Source: Pseudarthrobacter psychrotolerans (GTDB lineage: Bacteria > Actinomycetota > Actinomycetes > Actinomycetales > Micrococcaceae). From it: a DNA stretch of 64,000 nt. Shown here piece after piece: positions 6,429 to 35,308 of the stretch. Under the pieces are notes generated by a model, which made no database searches, was not told where the DNA came from, and was given only the letters and a program-made list of their open reading frames with translations. Position 1 is the stretch's first letter, and each line of letters starts with the position of its first letter. A program made the position numbers and the translations under genes. The stretch lies in NCBI RefSeq assembly GCF_009911795.1, contig NZ_CP047898.1:2542001-2606000 (forward strand). Reading direction: 5' to 3'.

Positions 6429-6442
6429 AGAAAGCGTTTTCT
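6429..6442. promoter_or_regulatory. LacI-family operator AGAAAGCGTTTTCT (copy 1), start-site position
   Basis: This 14-bp near-perfect palindrome is identical at four places in the window (also 8799, 35218, 35295). Here it lies just downstream of a plausible minus-strand -10 box (TAGTAT at 6451-6456), so a bound repressor would block the start of transcription of the binding-protein gene. LacI-family operators typically have such A/T arms around a central CG. Confidence 0.8.
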
Positions 6443-6450
6443 TGACTCTC

Positions 6451-6479
6451 ATACTACAAGTCCTTGACTTGTATTACAA
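6451..6479 (-). promoter_or_regulatory. Predicted promoter of the binding-protein gene
   Basis: Read on the minus strand, TTGTAA (6474-6479) and TAGTAT (6451-6456) are separated by 17 bases, each matching four of six consensus positions. The operator at 6429-6442 follows at the expected start site. The GTG start is about 60 bases further on. Confidence 0.5.
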
Positions 6480-6480
6480 G
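6468..6480. promoter_or_regulatory. Palindrome CTTGTATTACAAG, GntR/FadR-like site over the -35 box
   Basis: A perfect 6+1+6 palindrome covering the predicted -35 box of the binding-protein promoter. It fits the TNGTNNNACNA pattern known for FadR-subfamily GntR regulators. Which regulator binds it cannot be told; the only GntR gene in the window (36580-37284) has its own, different-looking sites. Confidence 0.4.
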
Positions 6481-6628
6481 ATGTTTCTCTTGGCCCGTAC
6501 CTTGGGCCAGGGGCCAATGGGCTGGGCCTGGGCGGACGTTCCGCTCGGCCCGGCCGGCCCGGCGGGATACGCCAATGGCCCGTCCGCAGGGGACAGGCCA
6601 CCGACTGGTGCAAGGTGCTTCGCTGGAT

Positions 6629-7579
6629 CTACTTGATGCCTGTGGTGGCGATGCCCTTGATGAGGAACCGCTGGCCGAAGAGGAACACCAGGAACACCGG
6701 CAGGAGGGACACGATGGACATCGCGAACAGCGATCCCCAACTGGTGGCGGACTGCGAATCCACAAAGGCGCGCAGCGCAACGGGAACGGTGAACATGTCC
6801 GGATCCGTCAGGTAGATCAGGGCGCCGAAGAAGTCGTTCCACGTCCAGATGAAGGTGAAGATGGTGGTGGTGGCCAGTGCCGGCACCATCAGGGGCAGGA
6901 TGACCCGCAGGAAGATGCGCGGGTGGCCGGCGCCGTCGATCCTTGCCGCTTCATCCAGGTCCTTCGGGATGCCGCGGATGAACTGGACCATCAGGAACAC
7001 GAAGAACGCATCCGTGGCCAGCAGCTTGGGCACAATGAGCGGCCAGAAGGTGTTCACCCAGCCGATCTGCGAGAACAGGATGTACTGCGGCACGATCACC
7101 ACGTGGAACGGGAGCATGATGGTCAGCAGCATGATGCCGAAGAACAGCTTCTTGCCCGTGAACTGGAGCCGCGCGAATGCGTAGGCGGCCATGGAGCAGG
7201 AGATCAGGTTTCCCAGGATGGAGCCGATCACCACGATGGCCGAGTTGAGCATGTAATGGCCGAACGGGTGCGTCAGCGCGGACCAGCCGTCCGTGTAGTT
7301 GCTCATCTCCAGGCTGTTGAGCCACAGGCCCGGCTCGCGGAAGATCAGCTCATTGGCCCGGAGTGAAGAGACCACCATCCACAGCAGCGGGTAGATCATC
7401 AGGCCGCCGGCGAGGATCAGGATGGCATGTTTGACCAGTGCCCTGGTGCGGGCAGCCCTGCTGAAAGCGAGCGTGCCGCGGGACTCGCGGCGCTTCGCGG
7501 GCTTGCGGTGGTTCGTAGGCTTACCGGCGCCGGCGGTGTTTTTGTCCGGGGCGGGCAGCGTCTCAAGTTTAGTCGTCAT
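6629..7579 (-). CDS. ABC sugar transporter permease, MalG/CUT1 type
   Basis: A 316-residue inner-membrane permease with about six hydrophobic segments and the conserved cytoplasmic EAA loop near the C-terminus (EAARIDGAGHPRIFLRVILP), which contacts the ATPase subunit. The N-terminal tail of about 45 residues is long, polar and Lys/Arg-rich, as is common in Arthrobacter homologues. The ATG at 7579 overlaps the end of the upstream permease gene by 11 bases, so the two are translationally coupled. No ATPase gene is nearby; actinobacterial CUT1 importers usually share one MsiK-type ATPase encoded elsewhere. The frame extends further upstream, but that part duplicates the preceding gene and is not used. 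Confidence 0.94.
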   Translation of the reverse strand: MTTKLETLPAPDKNTAGAGKPTNHRKPAKRRESRGTLAFSRAARTRALVKHAILILAGGLMIYPLLWMVVSSLRANELIFREPGLWLNSLEMSNYTDGWSALTHPFGHYMLNSAIVVIGSILGNLISCSMAAYAFARLQFTGKKLFFGIMLLTIMLPFHVVIVPQYILFSQIGWVNTFWPLIVPKLLATDAFFVFLMVQFIRGIPKDLDEAARIDGAGHPRIFLRVILPLMVPALATTTIFTFIWTWNDFFGALIYLTDPDMFTVPVALRAFVDSQSATSWGSLFAMSIVSLLPVFLVFLFGQRFLIKGIATTGIK

Positions 7580-8513
7580 AGAAAACCCAATACTTTGCAG
7601 CGATGAAGTTGATGGCGGTGAACACGCCGATGATGACCAGCAGGAACCACGCCATTGCGGAGGCGTAGCCCATGTCGAACTGGCCAAAGCCCTTCTGGTA
7701 CAGGTACAGCGTGAAGAACATCGTGGAGTCCGAAGGGCCGCCATTGCCGCCGGAAACGATGAACGCCTGTGTGAAGGACTGGAAGGATCCGATGATCTGG
7801 AGCACCAGGTTGAAGAAAATGATGGGGCTGAGCATGGGAAGCGTGATCCGCCAGAACTGCTGGAGCGTGCTGGCTCCGTCCACCCTCGCTGCCTCGTAGT
7901 ACATCACCGGAATCTGGCGGAGGCCGGCCAGGAAAATGATCATCGGGGCGCCGAAGGTCCACACGTGCAGCAGCACGATGGAGCCCAGCGCCGTGCTCGG
8001 ATCGGAAATCCAGCCCGGACCCTGGATGCCGAACATGGCCAGGGCCTGGTTGACCAGGCCGGTGGTGCCGAAGATCTGCTTCCACAGGATGGCAACAGCC
8101 ACGGAACCGCCCAGCAGGGACGGCAGGTAGAAGATGGAGCGGTAGAACGGCAGTCCGCGCAGGCCCTTGTCCAGCACCAGCGCGATCAGCAGGGCAACAC
8201 CAAGCTGCAGCGGGACGCCGACAAAGACGTAGGTGAACGTCACGCCCAGCGAGTTGTGCAGCCGGGCGTCGCCGAACATGCGGATGAAGTTGTCCAGCCC
8301 GACCCATTCCGGCGGCTGCAGCAGGTTGTAATCGGTGAAGGACAGGTACAGGGACATCAGCATCGGACCGACGGTGATGGCAACAAGGCCCACCAGCCAC
8401 GGCAGCAGGAAGATGTAGGCGGCCTTATTGTCCCGGCCGTTGGCTTTTTTCTCTGCTGCCGTCATGGGGCCCTTGCGGCGCTTGAGGGTGCTCAGTTCGC
8501 TGATGGCACTCAT
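7569..8513 (-). CDS. ABC sugar transporter permease, MalF/CUT1 type
   Basis: A 314-residue permease with membrane segments beginning at AYIFLLPWLVGLVAITVGP, and the EAA motif EAARVDGASTLQQFWRITLP in the second half. It pairs with the downstream MalG-type permease to form the channel of a carbohydrate importer. The ATG at 8513 has GGAG eight bases upstream and overlaps by ATGA with a short leader reading frame (8510-8599) that carries a much stronger ribosome binding site, so translation is probably coupled to that leader. The transcript would start near 8770, where two LacI-type operator sequences flank the promoter. Confidence 0.94.
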   Translation of the reverse strand: MSAISELSTLKRRKGPMTAAEKKANGRDNKAAYIFLLPWLVGLVAITVGPMLMSLYLSFTDYNLLQPPEWVGLDNFIRMFGDARLHNSLGVTFTYVFVGVPLQLGVALLIALVLDKGLRGLPFYRSIFYLPSLLGGSVAVAILWKQIFGTTGLVNQALAMFGIQGPGWISDPSTALGSIVLLHVWTFGAPMIIFLAGLRQIPVMYYEAARVDGASTLQQFWRITLPMLSPIIFFNLVLQIIGSFQSFTQAFIVSGGNGGPSDSTMFFTLYLYQKGFGQFDMGYASAMAWFLLVIIGVFTAINFIAAKYWVFYDD

Positions 8514-8753: not shown

Positions 8754-8780
8754 AGTAAACGGTTTCTTGACTCCTGTATA
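8754..8780 (-). promoter_or_regulatory. Predicted permease-operon promoter with a degenerate second operator
   Basis: On the minus strand a TATACA -10-like hexamer lies at 8775-8780, and operator copy 2 at 8799-8812 covers the -35 region. The sequence AGTAAACGGTTTCT at 8754-8767 matches the 14-bp operator at 11 positions and lies just after the -10 box. Two sites flanking the promoter would suit cooperative or looping repression. Confidence 0.4.
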
Positions 8781-8798
8781 GCCCTTTGTTAGTTTTTG

Positions 8799-8812
8799 AG
8801 AAAGCGTTTTCT
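8799..8812. promoter_or_regulatory. LacI-family operator AGAAAGCGTTTTCT (copy 2)
   Basis: Identical to the copies at 6429, 35218 and 35295. It lies in the divergent region between the permease operon (minus strand, leader start 8599) and the alpha/beta hydrolase gene (plus strand, start 8903), so one bound repressor could control both directions. The region 8600-8902 holds no coding sequence of its own. Confidence 0.8.
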
Positions 8813-8902: not shown

Positions 8903-10072
8903 GTGAGCAAGGATTCCCGGCCGGTCCGGCCCAGTGCGATCGCAGGCTATGAGAACTGGCCTGCGTACGTCCGTGACCGGCCGCGCTACCAGGCAGCCAC
9001 CCCGGCGGCGCAGGAACTTTCGGACGCCCTGGGCGTTCCGGCAGTTGATCCCCCGGCCGGCGTCACCGTCCACTGGGAGGAAACGTACGACGGCGTCACC
9101 ACCTCCCAGCTCAGCTGGCAGTTGGGCTTCGGTCCCCGCACCACGGGCTGGCTGATGCGGCCGGCCGGGAGTTCCGGGCCGCTGCCCGGCGTGCTCGCCC
9201 TGCACTGCCACGGCGGAAACAAGTTCGGCGGAGCGGACCGGCTGGTCACGCTTCCTGAGCCCCATCCTTCCGCGGCGGAAGCCCGTGCCGGACACTACGG
9301 AGGGCGCGCGCTGGCTACGGATATCGCCCGCCAAGGCTTAGCCGTCCTGGCCCACGACGCCTTCGCGTGGGGCAGCAGGCGCTTCGATCTGTCCACCCCG
9401 CCGTGGCGGACGGAATCCGCACTGGAGGCGAGGAAGTCGCAATGGCGGGAGGCCGGCGTCGTACCTTCCGACGCCGAGCTGTACAACGCTGCCGCGGGAA
9501 TCCACGAGGACACCGTGGCCAAGGCCGCGGGCCTGCTGGGCACCAGCCTGGCGGGGATGGTGGCCCACGATGACCTGGCCGCCCTGGAGATCCTTGCCGG
9601 CCTGCCGGGGGTGGATGCGGACCGGCTGGGCTGCATCGGGTTCTCCGGTGGCGGCGGCCGGGCCCTTGCCCTCGCCGTCCTCAGCCCGCGGATCCGGACC
9701 TACGTGGTGACGTGCATGATGACCACGTTCCAGTCGCTGCTGCCCGCCTACCTGGATGCCCATTCCTGGCTGCTCCAGACCCCGGGCCTCTGGAAGCTGG
9801 GCGACTGGCCGGACCTGACCGGAAGATCCGGCGCAAAAGGATTCCTGGTGCAGTACGCGCTGGCCGACGAGCTGTTCCCGGAAGAAGGGATGCGCGGCGC
9901 CCACCGGATCCTGAAGTCCCTGCACGGGCCGGAAAGCTACACCGGGAGATTCTGGCCAGGAGGGCACGTCTTCACGGCGGAGATGCAGAATGAAGCAATC
10001 AGCTACCTGTCCAGGACGCTGAGTGCAGAAGGAACCACCGCCCACAGTCTTTCGTCCCTACCAACCCCTTAG
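8903..10072 (+). CDS. Alpha/beta hydrolase (acetyl-xylan-esterase or dienelactone-hydrolase-like)
   Basis: A 389-residue cytoplasmic hydrolase without a signal peptide. The nucleophile elbow is GFSGGG with Ser at about residue 248. An HCHGG oxyanion-hole segment is near residue 101, and an Asp (ALADELFPEEG) and a His (PGGHVF) complete a plausible catalytic triad near the C-terminus. Related proteins remove acyl groups from sugars or cleave ester bonds. The start is the GTG at 8903; the frame is open back to 8786, but that part covers the operator. It is divergent from a sugar importer, under the same operator, and 16 bp before the next gene, so it probably deacylates the imported substrate. 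The true ester is unknown. Confidence 0.85.
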   Translation: MSKDSRPVRPSAIAGYENWPAYVRDRPRYQAATPAAQELSDALGVPAVDPPAGVTVHWEETYDGVTTSQLSWQLGFGPRTTGWLMRPAGSSGPLPGVLALHCHGGNKFGGADRLVTLPEPHPSAAEARAGHYGGRALATDIARQGLAVLAHDAFAWGSRRFDLSTPPWRTESALEARKSQWREAGVVPSDAELYNAAAGIHEDTVAKAAGLLGTSLAGMVAHDDLAALEILAGLPGVDADRLGCIGFSGGGGRALALAVLSPRIRTYVVTCMMTTFQSLLPAYLDAHSWLLQTPGLWKLGDWPDLTGRSGAKGFLVQYALADELFPEEGMRGAHRILKSLHGPESYTGRFWPGGHVFTAEMQNEAISYLSRTLSAEGTTAHSLSSLPTP

Positions 10073-10088
10073 CCACCGAGGATCCTTG

Positions 10089-11594
10089 ATGATTCAGCAC
10101 TCCGCCCCCGCGGCACCCGCCAGCTCTGCAACGGCAGGTGAAGTTCCTGCTCCGGCAGCGCTCCCGCGCGTAGCCCTCGTAGGGGTGCACGGCTTTGGCG
10201 AATCGCACCTGGCCAACCTCGCCAGGCTCGAGGAAGCCGGCGCCCTGCACCTCGTGGCGGTGGCCGATCCCAACCCGCCGGAAACGGGCGCGCTCGGCGA
10301 TTCCGTGGCGGTCTTCAACACCCTGGACCAGATGCTGGCGGCCGGGCCGGTCCCGGACGTGGTCATCCTGGCCACCCCCATCCAGACCCACGCTCCCCTG
10401 GCGCTGGCGGCGTTGGCCGCCGGTGCCGACGTGTACACGGAGAAGCCGCCGGTGGCATCCATGGCCCAGTTCCAGGACGTGCTGGCGGCCGCCGAATCCG
10501 CCGGCCGGCTCGTTCAGGTGGGCTTCCAGAGCCTGGGCTCGCTGGCCCTGCCGGAAATCCGGAACACCATCGCGGCCGGCGGCATCGGGGACGTGCTGGG
10601 ACTCAGCGCCACCGGCATGTGGCTCCGGAGCAGTGGCTACTTCAAGCGCTCCCGGTGGGCCGGCAAACGCAGCCTGGACGGCATCGACGTGGTGGACGGT
10701 GTGGCCACCAATGCCTTGGCGCACGCCGTGGCCACCGCCCTGAACATGGCCGGCGCCCACACGGTGGCCGACGTCGCCTCCGTGGAAACGGATCTCTACC
10801 GCGCCCACGACACCCAGAGCGATGACACCTCGGTGATCCGTGTGCGCACCGCTGCCGGGACCACCCTGCTGTGCGCGCTCACGCTGTGCGCCCCCGAACA
10901 GCAGCGGCCCTCCGTCACGGTCCACGGGACGAAGGGGGACATCACGTTCTTCTACACCGAGGACAAACTGGTCATCAGCACGGCGGACGGCGAGCGCCGT
11001 GAGACGTTCGGCCGGACCGACCTGCTGGAGAACCTGCTCGCTGCCCGGGCGGCCGGCACTCCCCTGCTCAGTTCATTGCCGGATGCCGGCGCTTTTATGT
11101 GTGTGCTGGAAGCCATCCGTACCGCCCCCGCGCCCCGGGAAATCGACGCCGGCCATCTCAGCTGGGAGGGCGACGGCGATGATGCCCACCCGGTGGTCCA
11201 CGGCATTGCCGCGCTGATCGAACGCGCCACCAAGGCGCAGGCCACCTTTGCCGAGCTCGGCGTCCCCTGGGCCCGCAGCCTGCCGCCGGTCCGGACCTTC
11301 GACCTTGCCTGGCATCCCGTGGCGGACTACCAGGACGGCAGCCGCATCCGCGCCGTGTCGTCTCCCCGCCCGTACCTGCACCCCGTCCGCACCCTGGCCG
11401 GGACCGTTGTGACGGATCACCAGCCATTGGACCACGTGTGGCACCTGGGCGTGGGGTGGCCCTCCAGGATGTGGACGGCGTCAACTTCTGGGGCGGCCGC
11501 ACCTACACCCGGGCGGCCGGCGAGTACGTCTGGCGACCGGACCACGGCAGCATCGTCCGGACCGGAGAACCGTCCGCCACCGAGGGCGGACTGA
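10089..11594 (+). pseudogene. Gfo/Idh/MocA oxidoreductase half of a fusion gene, frameshifted
   Basis: From the ATG at 10089 the protein has a Rossmann fold (VALVGVHGFGESHL), the EKP motif (YTEKPPVAS) and a C-terminal Gfo/Idh/MocA domain to about residue 400. After a linker it continues as the start of a DUF6807 (PmoA-like) domain: RPYLHPVRTLAG ... LDHVWHLGVG. At the GGGG run 11453-11456 the frame is lost, and the last 47 residues to the TGA at 11594 are low-complexity and not homologous-looking. Adding one G restores the DUF6807 sequence in the next frame. I read this as one ancestral fused gene of about 690 codons (10089-12160) broken by a one-base deletion or a sequencing error. Its neighbours are a hydrolase 16 bp upstream and an M24-like gene downstream. 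Confidence 0.75.
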
Positions 11595-12160
11595 CCGAGA
11601 AACTCTCCTGGAACGGACCCGACGGTGCTCCCATCCTGACCGAGCAGCGCATCTGGACGTGGGCCGCCGTCGGGCCTTCCGCCTGGCGCCTCACGCTCGA
11701 GTTTGCGCTCTCCCCCGCCGGCAACCGGCCCATAAGCCTGGGCAGCCCGGGTTCCAACGGCCGGGTTGGGGGCGGTTACGGCGGGTTCTTCTGGCGCCTT
11801 CCCGAATGTTCCGGGGCGAGCGTTTGGACGCCTGCGGGGGTGGGTGAGTGCGCCGTGCACGGGAGTATCATGCCGTGGCTCGCCTGGTCGGGCGGTTTCA
11901 CCGGGGAAACGTCCGACGGCGGCACTCACCACAGCGGGGCCGCCACGCTCGTGTTCGTCGCCGCAGCGGATTCAACGGACCCGTGGTTCGTCCGCGTGGA
12001 CGGATACGCGGGAGTTGGCCAGTCGCTGGCCTGGGACGCACGGGTCATTGCCGAACCCGGTGCGCCGGTTCGCCGCAGCGTGACCGTGTTCATCGCCGAC
12101 GGGATTTTGGGCACCGAAGACATCGAGACATTGATCAAGACACAAGGGGACAACTCATGA
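11438..12160 (+). pseudogene. DUF6807 (PmoA-like) domain half of the frameshifted fusion gene
   Basis: Starting in this frame at about 11457, the sequence VALQDVDGVNFWGGRTYTR continues the domain begun in the other frame and runs through LTEKLSWNGPDGAPILTEQR to the TGA at 12158-12160. Nothing resembling a ribosome binding site precedes a start in this frame, so it is unlikely to be an independent gene. DUF6807 proteins occur in carbohydrate-catabolic clusters of Actinobacteria and are often fused to or beside Gfo/Idh/MocA oxidoreductases; their reaction is not established. The stop overlaps the ATG of the next gene (ATGA), showing that this frame was the original 3' end of the operon member. 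Confidence 0.75.
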
Positions 12161-13317
12161 GCCAGACCACCACCGCTGCTACACCGCCGTCGCAGCTGAC
12201 TGCAGCGGCGACGTTTGCGGACCAGGGCCGCCGCACGCCGCCCGCCTCGACAGCGGACCGTGCCATCAAGCGGCGCCGCGTCCTGGAGATCCTGGATGCC
12301 AAGGGGCAGGACTCCCTGCTCCTGACCAGCCACACGGCGCTGGCCTGGTACCTGGACGGCAGCCGTGTCCACATCAGCCTGGCCGGTGACCCCATCGCCG
12401 CGCTGCTGGTGGACCGGGACGGCGACCACCTGGTGGCGTTCAACAACGAGGCTGGCCGGATTGCGGCCGAGGAGCTCCCCGCCGGGGTCTCGCTCCACAC
12501 CGTGCCCTGGTACGGGAACCTGCACGAGGCTGCCGCCGCCGTCGGACATTCTTCCGGAGTGGGCGCCGGCACCCCGCTGGCGGAGGCCTCGGTGGCCACC
12601 GAATTGAGGGCTGCCCGGCAGCAACTCCTGCCCGGCGAGTCAGCCCGCTACGCCCGTCTCAGCGCGGAACTGGCCGGCATCATGACCGATGTGCTGTCCA
12701 CCGCCCGGCCGGACACCACGGAATTCGAACTGGTATCCGCCTTGGCCGGCCGCGTAGTTGGAGCGGGCGCGGAGCCGCTGGTACTCCTGTGCAACGGCAG
12801 CTCCCGGAGCGACTTCCGCCACCCGCTGGCCACGCACGCACCCCTCGGCCGTCGCGCCATGGCCGTGGTATGCGCGCGCCGCGACGGTCTGGTCGCGAAC
12901 ATCACCCGCTGGATAAGGTTCGACGCCGGATCCCCCGAGGAGCTCGACGCCGAGGCTCGGATCGCGGCCGTGGAAGCGGACATCTTCGACGCGACGGTTC
13001 CCGGTGCCCGGCTGGACCGCGTCTTCGGCGAGATCAAGGCGGCCTACGTCCGCCAAGGTTTCGGCGCGGAGCAGTGGGAGCAGCACCACCAGGGCGGACC
13101 GGCGGGCTATGCCGGACGGGATCCGCGCGTCACCGCGGCAGCCACCGACGCCGTGGTGCTCAACCAGCCGTTCACCTGGAACCCGTCGGGACCCGGCGTG
13201 AAGATCGAGGACACGGTCCAGCTCACCGAATCCGGCATAAAGGTCCTGACCGTGGATGACCGCTGGCCCGCTGTTACCGTGAACGGCCTCCAGCGGCCGG
13301 TCACGCTGCAGCTATAG
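12157..13317 (+). CDS. M24 family (Xaa-Pro aminopeptidase-like) protein
   Basis: A 386-residue protein with an N-terminal creatinase/prolidase-like domain (DSLLLTSHTALAWYLDG) and a C-terminal pita-bread-type M24 domain (ARLSAELAGIMTDVLS ... HHQGGPAGYAGRDPR ... VKIEDTVQLTESG). I do not see the paired-Asp metal-binding segment of true M24 peptidases: the place where it would be expected reads TRWIRFDAGSPEELDAEAR. Activity may therefore differ from proline peptidases. The ATG at 12157 overlaps the previous stop by four bases and has AAGGGGA upstream, so it is coupled to the frameshifted fusion gene and belongs to the same sugar-linked operon. Its substrate is unknown. Confidence 0.8.
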   Translation: MSQTTTAATPPSQLTAAATFADQGRRTPPASTADRAIKRRRVLEILDAKGQDSLLLTSHTALAWYLDGSRVHISLAGDPIAALLVDRDGDHLVAFNNEAGRIAAEELPAGVSLHTVPWYGNLHEAAAAVGHSSGVGAGTPLAEASVATELRAARQQLLPGESARYARLSAELAGIMTDVLSTARPDTTEFELVSALAGRVVGAGAEPLVLLCNGSSRSDFRHPLATHAPLGRRAMAVVCARRDGLVANITRWIRFDAGSPEELDAEARIAAVEADIFDATVPGARLDRVFGEIKAAYVRQGFGAEQWEQHHQGGPAGYAGRDPRVTAAATDAVVLNQPFTWNPSGPGVKIEDTVQLTESGIKVLTVDDRWPAVTVNGLQRPVTLQL

Positions 13318-13531
13318 GCGCGGGGCCGGCGCAGGGCTTCAATTGTTGAAGGAGTTGCCTGTTGGGTCTTGTGGGCACCGGCTGTCTTGAGCGAGACTCA
13401 TTTAGCACGCAATGAACTGATCGTTTGGAGTGCACGACAAAACCAGCGGGAAGGGGACGCAAAGGCGCGTCCGTTTCTGCTCCGTGGCAACGACGCCGCG
13501 GGGCGGATCCCGCAGACCGGGAGGATTTGCT

Positions 13532-13858
13532 ATGGCCGGAATGTTCGAACTGTTCGTTGACGCGGACTCGTATTTCAGGTTCCGTCTGACTGCACCGGAT
13601 GGCACCGTAATGGCAGTGTCCAAGGCTTTTGACAACAAGACCGCAGCTGTTGCCGGTATCGCCGCCGTGCGTGAGTACGCCGGCATGGGACTGATTGCCG
13701 ATGTTTCGCCGACGGAAAGGCGGTCCACGCCGCCGGAGGCACGTGATCTGACTCCCCAGGTGCGTGAAGTCCGGCGCATTCCGGCGGCCGATCTTCACGC
13801 ACGTTCCAGGGAAATGCATCGGACCACCAGCGAACGTCGATGGGCCGGCGCCGTCTGA
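13532..13858 (+). CDS. DUF1508 (YegP-like, UPF0339) protein
   Basis: A 108-residue protein with one YegP-type repeat (FELFVDADSYFRFRLTAPDG ... KAFDNKTAAVAGIAAVREYA). A divergent, charged C-terminal tail replaces a second repeat. The ATG at 13532 has GGGAGG nine bases upstream. Proteins of this family are small alpha-beta proteins of unproven role, often present in stress or accessory regions. It stands alone, 214 bp after the M24 gene, at the edge of the accessory region. Confidence 0.8.
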   Translation: MAGMFELFVDADSYFRFRLTAPDGTVMAVSKAFDNKTAAVAGIAAVREYAGMGLIADVSPTERRSTPPEARDLTPQVREVRRIPAADLHARSREMHRTTSERRWAGAV

Positions 13859-14461: not shown

Positions 14462-14560
14462 GCTCGCGGCCAGCATCCAAGGTGCGACTGTTCCCAACAG
14501 ATTCCACGGAAGCTACGTGCTACCTTCAGCACTCCGATTGACAGTGAATTTGGGGGAATC

Positions 14561-18007: not shown

Positions 18008-18015
18008 ACCTTGTA

Positions 18016-27187: not shown

Positions 27188-29052
27188 GCGGATTCCATTG
27201 GTCGACGCAACAGTTGAATGAAATGGGTGCGTTGTCCCGGCGTTTTGAGGCTACCCCAAAATGGCGGTTGGCGCGTTGCGTTCGGCCTTGAAGCGTGCGG
27301 CCGGGGTGTCGTAGGCCATGGTCTTTCTGGGCCGCGTGTTCAGTTCTCGCATGACCTGGGAGACGTGCTCGGAACTATGAACGGCGAGGTTGGTTCCTTT
27401 GGGGAAGTATTGGCGGACGAGTCCGTTGAAGTTCTCGTTGGCGCCGCGTTGCCAGGGGCTGGATCGCTCGGCGAAGTATACCGGGACCCCGGTTTCCTTG
27501 GTGAGTTCTTCGTGCCTGGCCATTTCGATTCCTTGGTCCCACGTCAGTGTTCGCTTCAAAGCAGGCGGCAGTTTGGCGAATGCGCCGATGATGGCGTCGT
27601 TGACGCTTGCAGCCGTGTGGTCGCGGGGCAGATTGACGATGATTCCATACTGGGTTTTCCGTTCCCTCAGGGTCACCATCGCCGAGACGGAACCGACCCC
27701 GATCACGAGATCCCCTTCCCAGTGGCCGGCTTCCAATCGTGTTTCGACTTCTGCTGGCCGTTGGTCGATCATGGTCATGTTGCGGATCCGTGAGCCCTGC
27801 CCTGTGCGGGTGCGCCAGCGGGTCTTGCGAATTCTTCGACCGGTGCGCAGTTTGGTGGCGTAGCGCTTGTGCAGTCCTCGGCTCTCGCGCAGCAGCAAGG
27901 CCCGGTAGATCGTCTCGGGGCAGAGCCGCAGGCTCTGGTCGTCGGGGTAGGTTTTCTTCATCCATCCGCTGATTTCATCCGGAGACCAGCATCGGTTGAG
28001 CTTACGTTGCACGAGCCCGCGCAGGCGGGGGTTCGTGGCGAGTTTATGGGTCTTGGGCCGTGCCCGTTGCGCCCGGGCGTCGTGATCGGCCGTGCGGGGC
28101 AGATAGCGGCCTTCAACGTCTCGATGGCGGTCCAACTCTCGTTTGATGGTGGAGGCGTGTCGGCCCAGTTCCCGGGCCACTGCCCGCATTGAATGTCCCA
28201 GCTCCAGGAGGTCGGCGATCTGTAGCCGTTCTCGGGACTGGAGGTAGCGGCCCGTCGCTGCTGGCACAGGTGTAAGGGAGGGGATCTGGTAGTTGTTGGC
28301 GCGCCGGAGTACCGTGCCTGTTCGTCTGTGCATACCGAGGAGTCTGCATGCTTCGGCGTTGCTTTTGCCCTCGCGCATCAGCTGCCAGTACTTCGTGTCC
28401 CGTTCCGTGCGGCGTCGTTGCGCTTCGGAAACTGTTGAGGCCGCTACCTGATCTGCATAGCGGCTCGAGGACAAGATGGCTGCGTGCTGGGCAGCTATTG
28501 CCGTATTCCGTTCCTTTGCCAGCCGGGCGAGGCGTTCGCGTTCGAAACTGTGGCAGCGCTGATCAGTCAGCCGCAGAAGCGCTTGGCAACGCTTCGGGGT
28601 GACCTTCTGGCTCCGGAGCTTCTCGAACCGCTCGCGAAGCCATCGATACGCCGTGGAACGGCCAACCCCGGCCAGTAGAGCCGACTGGGACGGGCTTTGG
28701 CCGCGGTCGAAGGCCTCCCAAAATATGGCTTCGTCCTCAATGTTTGCTTGTAGATGGTGGCGACTCGTAGTTTCGGCTACTGCTGCTTCCCACGCTGGGA
28801 GCTTGGCGGTGGTGAACCCAAGTAACGCCGTCACCTCCGCGGGACTTGATCCATCCTGGCGTAACTGCAAATATCTCTCACGCAACCAGCGGTAACCGAC
28901 CTCCTTATGGATGCCGGACGCCCGGGCGGAAGAATTGAGACTATTTCCTTGCTTGATCGAGGCAAGAAAGCGGACCCCTGCTGAAGACGAAGAACGAGGA
29001 AGCATATCGAACCACCTTGAAGAAGGTGTTGCTTCGATCGATAGAATCCCGC
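27188..29052. mobile_element. Complete IS30 family insertion sequence with 4-bp target duplication GAAC
   Basis: The left end at 27188 starts TGCGGATTCCATTGGTCGAC and continues GCAACAG, clearly related to the IS30 terminal repeat. The inverted match on the right runs from 29026 to 29052 (GTGTTGCTTCGATCGATAGA then ATCCCGC), 20 of 27 positions. GAAC flanks both ends (27184-27187 and 29053-29056). The element is 1865 bp with one transposase gene on the minus strand. Its target lies inside a dispersed repeat: removing the element restores GAACCCTATACGGGACA. Confidence 0.85.
27251..29005 (-). CDS. IS30 family transposase with extended N-terminus
   Basis: A 584-residue transposase, longer than the 380 or so residues of IS30. 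Residues 1-220 add three helix-turn-helix-like segments (SLNSSARASGIHKEVGYRWL, SQSALLAGVGRSTAYRWLRE). The IS30-type HTH follows (SMRAVARELGRHASTIKREL), then the catalytic core: the first Asp region is HWEGDLVIGVG, the second TWDQGIEMARHEE, and the Glu is in PWQRGANENFNGL. The ATG at 29005 has AAGGTGG upstream and lies inside the terminal repeats; the frame extends beyond the element and is not used. Apparently intact. Confidence 0.92.
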   Translation of the reverse strand: MLPRSSSSAGVRFLASIKQGNSLNSSARASGIHKEVGYRWLRERYLQLRQDGSSPAEVTALLGFTTAKLPAWEAAVAETTSRHHLQANIEDEAIFWEAFDRGQSPSQSALLAGVGRSTAYRWLRERFEKLRSQKVTPKRCQALLRLTDQRCHSFERERLARLAKERNTAIAAQHAAILSSSRYADQVAASTVSEAQRRRTERDTKYWQLMREGKSNAEACRLLGMHRRTGTVLRRANNYQIPSLTPVPAATGRYLQSRERLQIADLLELGHSMRAVARELGRHASTIKRELDRHRDVEGRYLPRTADHDARAQRARPKTHKLATNPRLRGLVQRKLNRCWSPDEISGWMKKTYPDDQSLRLCPETIYRALLLRESRGLHKRYATKLRTGRRIRKTRWRTRTGQGSRIRNMTMIDQRPAEVETRLEAGHWEGDLVIGVGSVSAMVTLRERKTQYGIIVNLPRDHTAASVNDAIIGAFAKLPPALKRTLTWDQGIEMARHEELTKETGVPVYFAERSSPWQRGANENFNGLVRQYFPKGTNLAVHSSEHVSQVMRELNTRPRKTMAYDTPAARFKAERNAPTAILG

Positions 29053-29089
29053 GAACCCTATACGGGACACATGGAGAAGTGTTCTCGGG
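29053..29089 (+). repeat. Dispersed short repeat, copy g, interrupted by the IS30 element
   Basis: GAACCCTATACGGGACACAT followed by the hairpin GAGAAGTGTTCTC (29074-29086). The first bases GAAC are duplicated on the other side of the IS30 element (27184-27187), showing that the repeat was the insertion target. Confidence 0.6.
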
Positions 29090-29118
29090 CGACGACCCCA
29101 AGCGTGAAGTTCGAACAG

Positions 29119-30570
29119 TTACGGAAGAACCAGCTCACCGTCCACGCGGCGCGGGATGCCCAGCGGGTTGCCTTCGCGCAGTGCCGGGTGCAGGACCGTT
29201 TCCGGAGCGTCCTGGTAGGCGACAGGGCGCTGGAAGCGGCGGACCGCCGTCGCGCCCACCGAGGTGAACAGGGACGTGGTGGCCGGGTACGGGCCGCCAT
29301 GCTGCTGCGCCCAGTTCACTGCGACGCCGGTGGGCCAGCCGTCGAACAGGACCCGCCCGGCGAGGCCGGACAGCTGCTCCACGAGGTCCCCGACGTCCTC
29401 GCCCGGCTGGGCGTGGACTGTGGCAGTCAGGCTGCCGGGAACCTTGGCCAAGACAGCGGAGAGTTCTTCCTGGTCCGAGTATTCGATGAGCATCGTCGTG
29501 GGGCCGAAGCACTCCTCCAGCAGCTCGTCCGGGCGCTCCAGGACATTCGCGGCCGAGGTGGAGAACACTACGGGGGCGGCGCCGTTGAGGGTGGCGTCCT
29601 GGTCCGCCGTACCGCTGACGATGGTCACGTCGGGCAGCGAAGCCACGCTGCGCAGGCCCTCCGGGTAGGCGTCGGAGATCCGTGTGGTGAGCATGGCCGC
29701 CGTCGGCTTGTCCTTGCTGGCCTCAGCCAGCTCCGCGGCGAATCCTGTGCCCGCCGGGATGAAGACCAGGCCGGGTTTGGTGCAGAACTGGCCGGCGCCC
29801 ATGGTGAACGAGGCTGCAAGTCCCGCCGCGAGCTGGCCGGAACGCTCGGCCAGCGCGGCCGCGGTGATGACCACCGGGTTCAGGCTGCCCAGCTCGCCGT
29901 AGAACGGGATGGGGTCCGGCCGGGAAACCGCGAGGTCAAACAGCGCCCGGCCGCCGGGGATGGAACCTGTGAAGCCCACGGCCTTGATGGCGGGATCCTG
30001 CACCAGCGCGGTGCCCACCTCGCGGCCTGCCACAAGCGCGAACAGTCCCTCCGGCGCTCCGGCGGAACGCAGGGCTTCGGTGACCACTTCGGCCGTCCGC
30101 TCGGACAGCTTCAGGTGGCCCGAGTGGGCCTTGACGATCACCGAGGAGCCCACGGCCAGCGCCGACGCGGTGTCGCCGCCGGCCACTGAAAACGCGAACG
30201 GGAAGTTGGAGGCCGAGAAAACGGCCACCGGCCCGATGGGACGCAGGATGCGGCGAAGGTCCGGCTTGGGCGGCGCAGCGGACGGGTCAGCGTGGTCAAT
30301 CACGGCTTCAAGGTAGGAGCCTTCGGTGATCACTCGGGCGAACAGCCGCAGCTGCCCGGACGTGCGGGCCACCTCGCCGGTCAGGCGAACGGTGCCGAGG
30401 CTGGTCTCCGAATCGGCGATCTCCACCAGTTCGGCCACGTCGGCGTCCAACGCGTCGGCGACGGCGTTGAGCCAGCCTGCGCGTTCGGCGTCCGACGCGG
30501 CAGCCGCGATGGCGGCCGCCCGGGTAGCGGCGGCCGTGAGCTCGGAGAGGGAAAGGGTTGCAGTTGTCAC
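29119..30570 (-). CDS. Aldehyde dehydrogenase, probable alpha-ketoglutarate semialdehyde dehydrogenase
   Basis: A 483-residue NAD(P)-dependent dehydrogenase of the KGSADH-like branch of the aldehyde dehydrogenases. Visible features are the cofactor segment ASNFPFAFSVAGGDTASALA, KAHSGHLKLSE, the general-base Glu in YGELGSLNPV and the catalytic Cys in MGAGQFCTKPGL. The likely reaction is oxidation of 2,5-dioxopentanoate to 2-oxoglutarate, the last step of oxidative uronate/aldarate degradation, which fits its place at the end of this operon (61 bp after the enolase-type gene). The start is the GTG at 30570, just before the conserved N-terminus; the frame is open further up but overlaps the preceding gene. 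Confidence 0.88.
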   Translation of the reverse strand: MTTATLSLSELTAAATRAAAIAAAASDAERAGWLNAVADALDADVAELVEIADSETSLGTVRLTGEVARTSGQLRLFARVITEGSYLEAVIDHADPSAAPPKPDLRRILRPIGPVAVFSASNFPFAFSVAGGDTASALAVGSSVIVKAHSGHLKLSERTAEVVTEALRSAGAPEGLFALVAGREVGTALVQDPAIKAVGFTGSIPGGRALFDLAVSRPDPIPFYGELGSLNPVVITAAALAERSGQLAAGLAASFTMGAGQFCTKPGLVFIPAGTGFAAELAEASKDKPTAAMLTTRISDAYPEGLRSVASLPDVTIVSGTADQDATLNGAAPVVFSTSAANVLERPDELLEECFGPTTMLIEYSDQEELSAVLAKVPGSLTATVHAQPGEDVGDLVEQLSGLAGRVLFDGWPTGVAVNWAQQHGGPYPATTSLFTSVGATAVRRFQRPVAYQDAPETVLHPALREGNPLGIPRRVDGELVLP

Positions 30571-30631
30571 TGGAGGTACCTGATTTTCGTCGGGAGTGGT
30601 GGTGTCTGCGGTCAGTCGTGATTGCAAGCTG

Positions 30632-31756
30632 TCAGGCTTGTGTGGGTCCGGCTGAGGGTGCGTCCGTGAACCGGAAGCCAAGTCCCGGCTGGTCTGTGAG
30701 GGTCAGGCGGCTGTTGCTGAAACGGACCGGTGACGGCCCTGCCAGGATGCCCAGCTGTTCGAAGGACGCGTCCTCCACGTCTTCCACCAGGGTGGGTTCC
30801 GCCAGCGTGAGGGCCAGCTGTCCGGACAGCTCCGGCAGCAGGTGCGGCATCACGCGGATGCTGTTGGTCCGCGCCAGCTCCACGATCCGCCGGAACGGCG
30901 TGATGCCGCCAATCCGGATGATGTTGGGCTGGATGATGTCCACCGCCTCCGCCTCAATGAAATCGCGGAACCGGTAGACGGTGTGCAGGTTTTCGCCCAG
31001 GGCGATTGGCACGGGTGAATGCTTCCGCAGCCTGCGGTAGGCCCAGAGGTCGTCCGCGCGGATGGGCTCCTCAAGCCATTCCAGCCCATATTCCGCGAGC
31101 ACGTCCAAAGCCTTGAAAGTGGTGGGCAGGTCCCACCGCTGGTTGGCGTCGATCATCAGCTTGCGGTCCGGGCCGAGGACGGACCGAACTGCCGCCACGC
31201 GCTCGGCGTCCTCGCGGATATCGGGCTTGCCCACCTTGATCTTGACTGCCCTGTGCCCTGTTGCCATCCAACGCTCGGTCTGGGCGACCAACTCCTCCAG
31301 CGTGTAGTGCAGGTTCACGCCGGACCCGTACACTTCAGCGGACTCCTGCCGCTGGCCAAGCAGGCCCGTGACTGACGTATCGGCCCGCCGAGCCTGGAAG
31401 TCCCAGAGGGCAAGGTCGACGCCGGCCATGGCGATGGTGGTCAGTCCCCCGCCGCCGGCCTCATGCAGCCGCTTCCACAACGCGTCCCATACCGTCTCGG
31501 GATTGGCGGGCAGCCCCGTAATGAAAGGCGCGATGTCGTAGTCGAGGAGGGCCTTGACGGCCTGCGGGCCGATGGTGGGGGTCCAGGAAAAACCGTGCCC
31601 CGCGCCGCCGTCGTCCGTCTGGATTTGCGTGACGATCACGTGGTTTTCCGGTGCCTCTGCACCCCAGCTGCGGCGCAGCGGGACGGTCAGGAGTCGGGTG
31701 GTCAGTCCGGTGATGACCGGCGCGGTCCGGACGGTTTCGACGGCGGGCGCACCCAT
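30632..31756 (-). CDS. Enolase-superfamily (mandelate racemase/muconate lactonizing type) sugar-acid dehydratase
   Basis: A 374-residue enolase-superfamily enzyme. It has a capping domain followed by a barrel with KIKVGK (the general base Lys pair), the metal ligands Asp in LMIDANQRW, Glu in LEWLEEP and Glu in ALGENLH, and a His in RVMPHLLPE. It should abstract the alpha proton of an aldonic or aldaric acid and eliminate water. In this operon glucarate, galactarate or a galactaro-lactone are the best substrate guesses. The ATG at 31756 overlaps the preceding stop by one base (TGATG). Confidence 0.88.
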   Translation of the reverse strand: MGAPAVETVRTAPVITGLTTRLLTVPLRRSWGAEAPENHVIVTQIQTDDGGAGHGFSWTPTIGPQAVKALLDYDIAPFITGLPANPETVWDALWKRLHEAGGGGLTTIAMAGVDLALWDFQARRADTSVTGLLGQRQESAEVYGSGVNLHYTLEELVAQTERWMATGHRAVKIKVGKPDIREDAERVAAVRSVLGPDRKLMIDANQRWDLPTTFKALDVLAEYGLEWLEEPIRADDLWAYRRLRKHSPVPIALGENLHTVYRFRDFIEAEAVDIIQPNIIRIGGITPFRRIVELARTNSIRVMPHLLPELSGQLALTLAEPTLVEDVEDASFEQLGILAGPSPVRFSNSRLTLTDQPGLGFRFTDAPSAGPTQA

Positions 31757-32661
31757 CAGCGGCCGGCCAGCTCGTAGCCCTTGGCCAGGATGGATTTCAG
31801 CTGGAGCAGCTGGTCCTCGGTGGGGTCCACCAGCGGCGGCCGGACCGGGCCAACAGGAAGTCCGCCCAGCCGCAGGCCGGCCTTGACCAGCGAGACGCCG
31901 AAGCCGGGGGTCTGGTCCCGGAGCCGCACCAGCGGGGCGTAGAAACCCTCCAGCAGGGCGTTGCGGCGCTCCTCATCGCCGGAGACATAGGCGTCGTAGT
32001 ACGCCTTGGCGATCTCCGGTGCCATGGCGAACGCCGCCGAGGAGTAGAGCGGAATGCCGAGGCCCCGGTAGGCGCCCTGGGTCAGTTCGGCGGTCAGGAG
32101 CCCGTTGAAGAAGGCGAAGTCCTCGCGTCCCGTGGCGCGGACCGCGGACACGATCTCCTGGGCCAGGCCAACATCGCCCAGCCCGTCCTTGAAGCCGATC
32201 ACCTTCGGGTTGGCGGCAAGGCGGACCATGGCGGCGGCGGTGAACTTGGCGTTGCCGCGGTGGTACACAATCACCGGGAGGCTGCTGGCATCGGCCACCG
32301 CCTCGACGTACGCCACCAGGCCATCGGTGGGTCCGGTGACCAGGTACGGCGGCAGGACCAGGAGTGCGTCGGCGCCGGCTTCCTCGGCAACACGTGCGGC
32401 GGCAAGGGCATGCCCCAGCGGCCCGCCGGCGCCGGCCACCACCGGCACCTTGCCTGCCACAACCTCGACGGCGGCGGTCACCACGGTGCGCACCTCATCG
32501 ATGCTCAGGGCGTGGAACTCACCGGTGCCGCAGGCAGGAAACACGCCGCCGGGCCCGAACGGCAGCCGCGAGCCGATGTGCTCTTTGAGGAGCTCCACGT
32601 CAACGGTGCCTTCCGGCGTGAACGGGGTGGCGGGAAAGAACAAAACGCCGTCGAATTTCAT
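31756..32661 (-). CDS. kdgD: Dihydrodipicolinate-synthase family, probable 5-dehydro-4-deoxyglucarate dehydratase
   Basis: A 301-residue (beta/alpha)8 aldolase-type protein. The conserved active-site features are GTGEFHALSIDE (in place of GTTGE), the Tyr in VIVYHRGN and the Schiff-base Lys in VIGFKDGLGD. GTGEF-type members are 5-keto-4-deoxyglucarate dehydratase/decarboxylases that form 2,5-dioxopentanoate, exactly the substrate of the dehydrogenase encoded downstream. The ATG at 32661 has AGGAG five bases upstream and overlaps the stop of the upstream epimerase gene by ATGA. The frame is open further back but duplicates that gene. Confidence 0.88.
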   Translation of the reverse strand: MKFDGVLFFPATPFTPEGTVDVELLKEHIGSRLPFGPGGVFPACGTGEFHALSIDEVRTVVTAAVEVVAGKVPVVAGAGGPLGHALAAARVAEEAGADALLVLPPYLVTGPTDGLVAYVEAVADASSLPVIVYHRGNAKFTAAAMVRLAANPKVIGFKDGLGDVGLAQEIVSAVRATGREDFAFFNGLLTAELTQGAYRGLGIPLYSSAAFAMAPEIAKAYYDAYVSGDEERRNALLEGFYAPLVRLRDQTPGFGVSLVKAGLRLGGLPVGPVRPPLVDPTEDQLLQLKSILAKGYELAGR

Positions 32662-33626
32662 GATGTCTCCTTGGCACCGCTGCCGGCGCTTACCAGCCGG
32701 GCGGATGTCTCGTCGTTGAGGGTGGTTGCTGTCTTCAGTTCTGTCCGCCAGCTGCGCTTGGGTTCCCAGCCAAGCAGTTGGCGGGCCTTCGCGATGGAGA
32801 AGGCGGGGCTGGTGCCGGTCAGGCCGGCGGCCAGGGCCTCGCTTCCGGGCAGGAAGCGGGGCATCAGTTCGGCCAGCGGTGCGGTGGCGAGGGCATCCGC
32901 GGCGCCCACAAAGAACGTTTCGCCGTTCGGGATGGTGTCCATTTTCTGCAGGAGCACTTCCAGGAAGTCGGCCACATCGCGGGCGTCCACGTAGTTGAAC
33001 AGTGCGGGCGCGGACAGGGCAGGATCGGCCAGGCGTTCGGCCAGGGTGTGGCCCTGCTGTGTGGGCGCGCCTTCCCATTCCTCCGGTGAGATGACGTAGC
33101 ACGGGCGGAAGGCGGCGTACCGGATCTTCGTACCCTGCGCCGCGGCAAACATCGCCACTGTCTGCTCGGCGATCAGCTTGGACAGCGCGTAGGCGTTCCA
33201 GGGCTTCGGCGTGCTGCGCTCATCCAGCGGGAAGCTGTCCGGCAGCCAGCCGGCCGGCGACCCGTAACCCAGTACCGTGGGGCTGCTCGCCGTGACGATC
33301 TTACCGATCCCCAGTTCCGTGGCCGCGCTGATGACAGCGAAGGCCATGCGGGTGTTCGTGGCGAAGATGACGTCCTCCGGCGCGCTGAACGGAACAGCGA
33401 TCGCGGCCAGGTGGATGACGGCGTCGGGCCCGGTCTCCCGGAGGAGGCGCAGCGCTTCGCCCGGGGCCAGCAGGTCGCCGGTTTCCTGCACAACGCCGGC
33501 GGGCAGCTGGTCCGCCGGGATGGCGTCGCGGTCCACCGAGACGACCTCGTGGCCCGCTGCCGCGAGCCCCGCCACAACGCTGCGCCCCAGCCGGCCGGAG
33601 CCGCCGGTGACAAAGATCCTGCTCAT
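32658..33626 (-). CDS. NAD-dependent epimerase/dehydratase family, probable uronate dehydrogenase
   Basis: A 322-residue extended short-chain dehydrogenase. It begins with the cofactor motif VTGGSGRLGRSVV, has the acidic DRDAIP after strand 2, NAG-equivalent HLAAIAVP, the SSPT segment and the catalytic YALSK. The operon context (aldarate dehydratase, KdgD, KGSADH) makes uronate dehydrogenase, which oxidises galacturonate or glucuronate to the aldaro-lactone, the most economical reading; a sugar epimerase remains possible. AAAGGAACCAAC precedes the ATG at 33626. Confidence 0.8.
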   Translation of the reverse strand: MSRIFVTGGSGRLGRSVVAGLAAAGHEVVSVDRDAIPADQLPAGVVQETGDLLAPGEALRLLRETGPDAVIHLAAIAVPFSAPEDVIFATNTRMAFAVISAATELGIGKIVTASSPTVLGYGSPAGWLPDSFPLDERSTPKPWNAYALSKLIAEQTVAMFAAAQGTKIRYAAFRPCYVISPEEWEGAPTQQGHTLAERLADPALSAPALFNYVDARDVADFLEVLLQKMDTIPNGETFFVGAADALATAPLAELMPRFLPGSEALAAGLTGTSPAFSIAKARQLLGWEPKRSWRTELKTATTLNDETSARLVSAGSGAKETS

Positions 33627-33653: not shown

Positions 33654-35078
33654 CTAGGCGTCGCGGCGAAGGTCTGCGCCGAGGTTCAGATCCTCGATGC
33701 GGACGGGAAGGGAGGACTCCAGCGAAAGGTTGCCGGCAATGCCCACGGACACGGAGCGGAGGCCGTCGAGGTAGCCGGACGGACGGCCCAGCGGGTCCTC
33801 GCCGGGGCCGTTGAAGAGGTCCGAGAGGAGCAGGTCGTCGCCGCCGCCGTGGCCTCCCTCGCCGTTGACGATGGGCACCTCGTAGGCTGCTTCCCAGTGG
33901 CGCTGGACCACCAGGCGTTCGCCGTTGCGGCGGACGGCGTCTTCCTCCTCGACGGGGGTGGCGCTCGGGTCAACCACGGTCTTTTTGTCCGTGCTGTTGA
34001 GGACGGCGGCGCGTTCCACCACTTCGAGTTCGGCCCGGCCTTCGGTGCCGTTGACGGCCACCCGGTAGCCTTCCCACGGGCTGTGCGCGTTCAGGGAGTA
34101 GCTCAGCCGCGGGCCGCCCTGGTACTCCACCACGAGTGCCAGGTTGTCCTCGATGGTGATGCCGCCGGTGAAGACGTCCTGGTCACGGCGGTAACCGTCG
34201 TAGTGCTCGTTGTCCAGGAACAGGGCCTTCAGGCGCTCATCCTCACGCAGGTCCAGCGCAAACGGATCCTTTTCGGCACCTGCCGGAGCGCCGGCGTCGG
34301 GCGTTCCACGCTCCGGACGGGGACCCAGGCCGCGCTCGGCCGCATTCTTGTCGCCATAGAACTTGAGGCCGCCGGAAGCGAACACCCGCTCCGGGACGTC
34401 GTTGATCCACCAGTTGACCAGGTCAAAGTGGTGTGATGACTTGTGGATCAGCAGGCCGCCGGAGTTCTTCTTCTCGCGGTGCCAGCGGCGGAAGTAGTCG
34501 GCGCCGTGGACGGTGTCCAGGACCCAGCTGAAGTCGATGGAGGTGACCTTGCCGATCACGCCGCTCTGGATGATCTCCTTCAGGGCACTGTTCCGCGGTG
34601 AGTAGCGGTAGTTGAAGGTGACCACCACGTTGCGGCCGGTCTCCGCCACGGCCCTGGTGATGCGGCGGCAGCCTTCGGCGTCGATGGTGAGGGGTTTTTC
34701 GACGACGACGTCGGCCCCCGCCTCGAGTGCCTCCACGATGTAGTCCGCGTGGGTATAGTCCGGCGTGGTCACCACAACGCGGTCGATGCTGTTGGCCTGA
34801 ATGAAGGCGGTGAGGTCTGCGGGGTCAAAGGAAGCGACGGGTCCGGGCGCACCGAGTTCCTGGATGAGCTTCTGGTAGAACTCGACGCGGCCGGGGTTGA
34901 CGTCGGAGAAAGCCAGCAGTTCCGCGGTGTCCGCGTGCTTGCCGAAGATGGCGCGGATGTACATCTCGGAGCGCCCACCGGTGCCGATGAGGGCGATGCG
35001 GGCCTTGGTGCGCGCTCCTGCCTCCGGAGCGGAGGTGGAGGCAGCGGTAGCAGAACTCGATTCGGCTGTGTTGACCAT
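33654..35078 (-). CDS. Gfo/Idh/MocA family oxidoreductase, first gene of the uronate operon
   Basis: A 474-residue member, longer than the usual 330-400, with an N-terminal extension of about 25 Ala/Ser/Thr-rich residues, a Rossmann motif (IALIGTGGRSEMYI), the EKP motif (VVVEKPLTID) and the His-containing IHKSSHHFDLVNWW. A long charged insertion (ERGLGPRPERGTPDAGAPAG) separates parts of the C-terminal domain. It may oxidise or isomerise the imported uronate or its glycoside. The ATG at 35078 is preferred over an upstream GTG-type possibility at 35102 because it follows AAGGGACC. It lies directly behind the doubly operator-controlled promoter. Confidence 0.88.
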   Translation of the reverse strand: MVNTAESSSATAASTSAPEAGARTKARIALIGTGGRSEMYIRAIFGKHADTAELLAFSDVNPGRVEFYQKLIQELGAPGPVASFDPADLTAFIQANSIDRVVVTTPDYTHADYIVEALEAGADVVVEKPLTIDAEGCRRITRAVAETGRNVVVTFNYRYSPRNSALKEIIQSGVIGKVTSIDFSWVLDTVHGADYFRRWHREKKNSGGLLIHKSSHHFDLVNWWINDVPERVFASGGLKFYGDKNAAERGLGPRPERGTPDAGAPAGAEKDPFALDLREDERLKALFLDNEHYDGYRRDQDVFTGGITIEDNLALVVEYQGGPRLSYSLNAHSPWEGYRVAVNGTEGRAELEVVERAAVLNSTDKKTVVDPSATPVEEEDAVRRNGERLVVQRHWEAAYEVPIVNGEGGHGGGDDLLLSDLFNGPGEDPLGRPSGYLDGLRSVSVGIAGNLSLESSLPVRIEDLNLGADLRRDA

Positions 35079-35217
35079 GAGGGTCCCTTTCGAAGGCTTC
35101 AATGCTCGGCCGGGCTGCGGCCGCTGGTGGTGCGCTGGGCTGTGGTGCTCTGGACTTTAGTGCCCTGTGCGGGTGGTGCTCTGGACCGTGGTCCGGAAAG
35201 TCGCTGACCGGCAGGCG

Positions 35218-35231
35218 AGAAAGCGTTTTCT
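35218..35231. promoter_or_regulatory. LacI-family operator AGAAAGCGTTTTCT (copy 3)
   Basis: Identical to copies 1, 2 and 4. It lies about 20 bases downstream of the predicted -10 box of the uronate operon promoter (minus strand). Confidence 0.8.
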
Positions 35232-35247
35232 CAGCGCCGCTACATGA

Positions 35248-35277
35248 TTTCTATCAATAGACGAGCGGTCCCGTCAA
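35248..35277 (-). promoter_or_regulatory. Predicted promoter of the uronate operon
   Basis: On the minus strand TTGACG (35272-35277) and TAGAAA (35248-35253) with an 18-base spacer, lying between operator copies 3 and 4. This geometry fits repression by steric block plus looping between two bound LacI-family dimers. Confidence 0.5.
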
Positions 35278-35294
35278 CCCTTATCCTCTCTAAG

Positions 35295-35308
35295 AGAAAG
35301 CGTTTTCT
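35295..35308. promoter_or_regulatory. LacI-family operator AGAAAGCGTTTTCT (copy 4)
   Basis: Fourth identical copy, 77 bp from copy 3 (about seven helical turns), on the upstream side of the operon promoter and also upstream of the divergent lacI-type gene. Confidence 0.8.

Follow-up and report, generated by a model that had tools for sequence, protein, structure and literature searches.

Operators of LacI-family regulators are, as a rule, even-length palindromes centred on CG, and local LacI regulators mostly control their own genes, as set out in the main text of a comparative survey whose table lists six orthologous groups for glucuronate and galacturonate (ExuR, KdgR, UxaR, UxuR; Ravcheev et al. 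2014, PMC4052901). Here we describe a set of such operators in a window of 64,000 nucleotides (the whole stretch analysed, C1:2542001-2606000) of the Pseudarthrobacter psychrotolerans genome (5.17 Mb, 3 contigs), where a 14-bp sequence, AGAAAGCGTTTTCT, stands before genes of an ATP-binding cassette (ABC) importer and before a probable uronate operon. The sites keep their placement in relatives and co-occur with the operon and with an adjoining LacI-family gene at 35447, which we call LacI-B to distinguish it from a second such gene, LacI-A, at 1563. We consider it very likely that LacI-B represses the importer and the uronate operon as one regulon, with a pectin-derived inducer.

The arrangement resembles several described systems. 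With the local LacI sugar regulons of the main text of PMC4052901 it has in common the central-CG even palindrome, a regulator adjoining its target operon and frequent autoregulation. The LacI-family repressor IolQ (DegA) of Bacillus subtilis has a footprinted low-affinity site, AGAGAAAACGCTTTCTCAAAG, that contains our 14-mer as its reverse complement, and there, likewise, two sites lie in one promoter region; according to the available text of PMC5504672, IolQ differs in its target, a scyllo-inositol dehydrogenase, and in coming from a different phylum. The reverse complement of the 14-mer also equals a CcpA cre box listed for B. subtilis yisS, AGAAAACGCTTTCT, with a near-identical core ...AAARCGYTTT...; as described in the available text of PMC3463425, CcpA is a global, HPr-Ser-P-dependent regulator of degenerate sites with T/A outer bases, whereas the regulon here is small and linked. 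The operator code is therefore an ordinary LacI-type one, while the regulon itself seems new. The main text of PMC4052901 contains neither 'Arthrobacter' nor 'Micrococcineae', a term search of the main text of PMC12844168, on a pectin-degrading Paenarthrobacter, returned no 'LacI', 'uronate' or 'operon', and among the open-licence PMC papers searched we found none on this regulon in Arthrobacter relatives.

Operators in the window and across the genome

The 14-mer occurs exactly at 6429, 8799, 35218 and 35295, and at up to two mismatches the window holds nine strand-wise matches against a mean of 0.15 in shuffled sequence (largest count 3 among 100 shuffles). The original prediction had put these four copies in promoter regions; their coordinates are confirmed and, like all other sites in the window, they are intergenic. 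A degenerate fifth site that it named at 8754 holds as well, but its list was incomplete, as a sixth site lies at 35365. The window sites are even palindromes with a central CG (AGAAAGCGTTTTCT, GGAAACCGGTTTCC) and outer bases A...T or G...C, and those at 35218, 35295 and 35365 all fall between the divergent uronate operon and LacI-B gene.

Conservation was followed in 80 named LacI-B loci (Pseudarthrobacter, Arthrobacter, Paenarthrobacter), 72 of which hold the first gene of the uronate operon. In all 72, AGAAANCGNTTTCT lies between the operon and LacI-B, and in 66 of them the exact 14-mer is there, on one strand or the other. Counted over the 80 loci, the core GAAANCGNTTTC reaches 157 occurrences against 0.44 expected, compared with 0-12 for permuted half-site controls. 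Where two sites are present (n = 23), their spacing is 75, 76 or 77 bp in 2, 16 and 5 loci, respectively; many relatives have the proximal site alone, several have just one, shared site, and L166, L168, L170, L174 and L176 are without a full match. Many relatives have a variant of the 35365 site, for example AGAAATCGCTTTCC, at the corresponding position. Of 75 loci, 73 have TTGAC on the operon strand at a distance of 39-41 bp from the first site (exactly 40 bp in 62), where about 0.04 would be expected per 70-bp stretch. With this offset, the promoter would lie between the two sites, the proximal one downstream of it and the distal one upstream, a layout that would suit repression. Read by eye, promoters may be formed by TTGACT (8767-8772) with TAGTTT (8790-8795) and by TTGACG on the minus strand near 35278, a -35/-10 reading whose support is the conserved TTGAC offset.

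On the importer side, Arthrobacter sp. M4 (L155) carries the 6429-type operator at the corresponding position, as do six further loci, all of them retrieved through their motif copies. Five LacI-B-anchored relatives have DNA reaching the permease/hydrolase region; four (L112, L146, L152, L155) have the 8799-type operator, and all five keep the weaker 8754-type site, including L144, which is without the perfect one. The 8754 site has two mismatches to the exact 14-mer and one to the palindrome NGAAANCGNTTTCN. In 9 of the 11 permease/hydrolase intergenic regions examined (the window included; L051, L057, L063, L065 and the L206 stretch were selected for holding the motif), AGTAAACGNTTTCT, with TTGAC directly attached, stands at precisely 45 bp from the perfect site. 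Because this distance is kept so exactly, the degenerate site looks real.

Across the whole genome, a scan at up to one mismatch returned the four exact places and two others alone, 982060 and 2515933, each 20-36 bp upstream of a gene, and nothing for a reversed-pattern control. The scatter of copies through coding sequence that the original prediction named as a danger was not seen, as the genome has no other exact copy. The core GAAANCGNTTTC is found at 10 places in 5.17 Mb, where the base composition of the relatives' loci would predict about 1.4. The window accounts for five of the ten (35366 and the four exact copies); outside it, 1461160 and 3317082 are inside genes, and 982061, 2515934 and 3844680 are 20-55 bp upstream of a gene, with 982061 also falling within a mechanically called open reading frame (ORF) that overlaps from the other side. 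The shuffles, the reversed control and the core counts in the genome and in the relatives' loci together rule out chance recurrence of the 14-mer.

Downstream of the 2515933 site is a binding-protein gene whose neighbours encode a GH78 rhamnosidase, a rhamnogalacturonan-lyase-type protein and GH42 and DUF624 proteins. Two one-mismatch palindromes, C1:2509505 and C1:2509614 (L210 13506 and 13615), lie between divergent DUF624/GH42/rhamnogalacturonan-lyase-type and Gfo/GH78 genes and are possibly weak members of the same regulon. At C1:982060 (L005), 20 bp separate a perfect palindrome, AGAAAGCGCTTTCT, from a downstream beta-lactamase-family (PF00144) gene; this site is remote from every sugar cluster seen in the analysis.

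The sites are thus few, adjoin a regulator gene, are conserved across species with their target operon and include one, at 35365, before the regulator's own gene, as in a local regulon.

Probable regulator and substrate

LacI-B combines an N-terminal LacI helix-turn-helix (PF00356, 51.5 bits against a cut-off of 27) with a periplasmic-binding-protein-like sensor domain (PF13377, 100.7 bits; PF00532, 87.5 bits), and its recognition segment, GVSHATVSRVMN, is shared without change by 76 of the 80 orthologues. Motif and regulator presence was counted across 150 congeneric genomes. Of these, 94 carry the exact motif, with 277 copies (a hand-transcribed sum) against 1 for the reversed control (read from a table), and a LacI-B orthologue is present in 116. 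All 94 motif-bearing genomes have LacI-B, which leaves the motif in 94/116 genomes with the regulator and 0/34 without it (Fisher p 3.8e-19, a value that overstates independence, the genomes being related to one another). The first uronate-operon gene also occurs in 94 genomes, every one LacI-B-positive; 92 of these carry the motif, compared with 2 of the 22 that have LacI-B only. These counts suggest that the motif needs both regulator and pathway, which is what a local regulon predicts. LacI-B is therefore the likely regulator of the sites, as had been proposed for the protein from 35447.

Two other regulators were weighed. LacI-A sits beside the importer, about 4.9 kb from the 6429 site and nearer to it than LacI-B, and the original prediction had considered that it might bind in place of LacI-B; however, it does not track the motif, which is found in 26 of the 40 genomes with LacI-A and 68 of the 110 without (p 0.85), and it lies more than 1 Mb from LacI-B and the motif cluster in G066, G076 and G039, among others (23 kb away in G042). 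Since it shows no association with the motif across the 150 genomes, we reject LacI-A, to which we would give hardly any credence. The sites might instead belong to an unlinked LacI-family global carbon regulator, as CcpA is in Bacillus. The listed yisS cre box (PMC3463425), the presence of CcpA among the best solved relatives of LacI-B and the 24 LacI-domain proteins of the genome speak for this; yet ten core sites, five of them in the window and two at or near pectin-type or hydrolase genes, are far too few for a global regulator, and none of the 34 genomes that lack LacI-B has the motif. Moreover, the cre consensus WTGNNARCGNWWWCAW has T first and A last in the available text of PMC3463425, whereas the outer bases here are A/G and T/C (the count pattern itself required A/G and T/C). 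From the small number of sites and their different outer bases, a CcpA-like regulator is distinctly unlikely.

With LacI-B as the preferred regulator, the genes behind its sites point to the substrate. Among solved structures, the window's binding protein is closest to Bacillus YesO (5z6b, E 1.6e-61), which we take to be an importer of rhamnogalacturonan fragments; its operon and regulator differ. From the motif listing, 29 stretches holding the exact motif away from LacI-B in relatives were picked by hand. Fifteen precede a binding-protein gene of one type (that of L201 only 56% alike), three precede one of a second type, and six precede pectinase-type genes; a pectate lyase stands behind the motif in L208, rhamnogalacturonan lyase 11 in L204 and pectate-lyase/GH28-like genes in L050, L193 and L209, with L197 placed by likeness to L193 only. 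In L191 and L199 the motif precedes a similar protein (that of L199 gave no Pfam match), the L206 stretch is the importer cluster itself, and L190 gave no clear assignment. The comparative evidence is of the kind that marks a hexuronate regulator, with a KdgD-type gene behind a site here and pectinases behind sites in relatives. The same regulator could respond to a glucuronate-containing sugar such as xylan fragments, given the partial AXE1 match of the hydrolase and the L200 stretch, where the motif lies between an AXE1 gene and an MFS_2 sugar symporter gene and precedes the latter; uronate dehydrogenases, too, often accept both uronates. Against xylan, the extracellular enzymes whose genes follow the motif in relatives comprise pectinases and a rhamnogalacturonan lyase, the binding protein is YesO-like, and the one-mismatch site at 2515933 has the rhamnogalacturonan-type neighbours described above. 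These observations make pectin or rhamnogalacturonan the likelier substrate, and we regard the xylan alternative as rather doubtful.

Besides the relatedness of the genomes, several points weigh against the regulon as proposed. The motif tracks the pathway as much as the protein, because, of the 22 genomes with LacI-B and no uronate operon gene, 20 also lack the exact motif; G069 and G074 have the operon gene and no exact motif, and in G109 and G138, which carry the motif, no match to the operon gene reached the cut-off used. A strict sigma-70 scan of the three regions returned neither promoter-like nor terminator-like matches in any of them. The number of LacI-domain proteins in the genome counts here as well, the uronate-dehydrogenase and semialdehyde-dehydrogenase assignments are at family level only, and binding, repression rather than activation, and the inducer are inferred.

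In the proposed regulon, LacI-B would be a dimeric LacI-family repressor binding palindromes made of GAAANCGNTTTC flanked by A/G and C/T. Without inducer, it would occupy operators at or near the starts of three transcription units (the binding protein, the divergent permeases and hydrolase, and the uronate operon) and before its own gene, blocking transcription. Pectin-derived oligogalacturonides or rhamnogalacturonan fragments would enter and be degraded, and a metabolite of the galacturonate pathway would release LacI-B from its operators, so that import, trimming and oxidative breakdown (uronate to aldarate and, via KdgD, to alpha-ketoglutarate) would be switched on together. Placement and co-occurrence in relatives support the single regulon of importer and uronate operon that had been predicted from the window. 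Of its predicted functions, uptake and oxidative breakdown are linked in this way, but deacylation is weak, because the hydrolase matches just 47 of 321 positions of the AXE1 profile.

Genes of the proposed regulon and the split cluster

Among the uronate-operon genes, the KdgD-type assignment is firm for one of two models (NF002958, 398 bits against a cut-off of 278; TIGR03249, 274 bits, below its cut-off). The short-chain dehydrogenase/epimerase-type (SDR) protein resembles solved uronate dehydrogenases only weakly (3rft, E 9.7e-5), the closest NCBIfam model of the enolase-superfamily protein is L-talarate/galactarate dehydratase, below cut-off, and the aldehyde dehydrogenase has no NCBIfam model above cut-off; probable roles for these three are placed by family and context.

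Features of the proposed regulon and of the interval that divides its cluster (window coordinates)
Feature	Position	Strand	Basis or remark
Operator AGAAAGCGTTTTCT	6429..6442	.	exact; upstream of binding-protein gene
Weaker operator AGTAAACGGTTTCT	8754..8767	.	adjoins TTGACT (8767-8772)
Operator	8799..8812	.	exact; between divergent permease and hydrolase genes
Operator proximal to uronate operon	35218..35231	.	exact 14-mer
Distal operator of uronate operon	35295..35308	.	exact; 77 bp from proximal one
Likely autoregulatory operator GGAAACCGGTTTCC	35365..35378	.	precedes LacI-B gene
LacI-family regulator LacI-B, likely repressor of regulon	35447..36481	+	PF00356, PF13377, PF00532; motif co-occurrence
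Gfo/Idh/MocA oxidoreductase, first uronate-operon gene	33654..35078	-	PF01408, PF02894; start codon by eye
SDR/epimerase-type protein, probable uronate dehydrogenase by context	32658..33626	-	PF01370
5-dehydro-4-deoxyglucarate dehydratase (KdgD type)	31756..32670	-	NF002958; start approximate
Enolase-superfamily sugar-acid dehydratase or cycloisomerase	30632..31756	-	PF13378, PF02746
Aldehyde dehydrogenase, probably for alpha-ketoglutaric semialdehyde	29119..30681	-	PF00171; ORF start not refined
ABC importer solute-binding protein	5025..6383	-	PF13416; best solved relative YesO
ABC permease	6629..7744	-	PF00528; mechanical ORF, start not refined
ABC permease	7569..8513	-	PF00528
Alpha/beta hydrolase, distantly like acetyl xylan esterase	8903..10072	+	PF05448, partial
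Gfo/Idh/MocA-DUF6807 fusion, split over two frames	10023..12160	+	profile matches; one open frame in L101
M24-like protein, conserved in cluster	11848..13317	+	PF00557 below cut-off; mechanical ORF, start not refined
Mutator-family transposase	15248-16540		in 15.8-kb interval
IS21-type istA/istB pair	19289-21654		in 15.8-kb interval
SSF (sodium:solute) symporter with DUF3311	24785-26760		in 15.8-kb interval
rve-domain integrase gene	27251-29101		in 15.8-kb interval
ECF sigma factor	within 13318-29118		in 15.8-kb interval

In relatives, importer and uronate genes form a single cluster in L112, L144, L146, L152 and L155, where the fetched DNA reaches the permease gene; in most other LacI-B loci it ends before that gene. 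A frame similar to the M24-like protein, which closes the hydrolase operon, is present in 65 of the 80 loci, adjoining the uronate operon, from which it is separated by 57 bp to 3.4 kb. Between the M24-like and aldehyde-dehydrogenase genes lie 126 bp in L101 and 15.8 kb in the window (13318-29118), where the cluster appears split by an interval with mobile elements. In the close relative G143 the sites are also ~23 kb apart, so the insertion would not be unique to this strain.

Further observations concern single genes. In the Gfo/Idh/MocA-DUF6807 gene, DUF6807 positions 10-58 fall in one frame and 56-269 in the other. In L063 and L065 the hydrolase gene is replaced, downstream of the permease-side operator, by another gene of binding-protein-like type, which shares 40-41% identity with the SBP-b type. 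LacI-B persists beside GntR and FMN-dehydrogenase genes in L166, L168, L170, L174, L176 and other genomes without the uronate operon, and such operon-less loci have just a degraded palindrome (e.g. GGGAAACCGTTTCCC) before LacI-B. A GntR-FCD gene (36580-37317) adjoins LacI-B in the window as well, and the binding-protein promoter region contains TTGTATTACAA at 6469-6479. The latter presumably resembles a GntR/FadR-type palindrome; it is not beyond chance in the window, with one match expected in about a quarter of shuffles (23/100).

We lean, with less assurance than for the regulon itself, towards a wider role in which LacI-B would be the pectin/rhamnogalacturonan master repressor of Arthrobacter, Pseudarthrobacter and Paenarthrobacter, as a counterpart of KdgR in soft-rot enterobacteria. 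Secreted pectinases, several alternative oligogalacturonide importers and the oxidative uronate pathway would then answer to one 14-bp code, which species would retain while exchanging the outer enzymes, and the cluster described here would have been kept co-regulated after its split; although broken by mobile DNA, its parts appear still linked via shared operators. This offers a testable regulon, with a named candidate regulator and an exact operator code, for the use of pectin sugars by very common soil bacteria, and the same code may allow unfamiliar transporters and enzymes to be assigned to pectin use in about a hundred related genomes.

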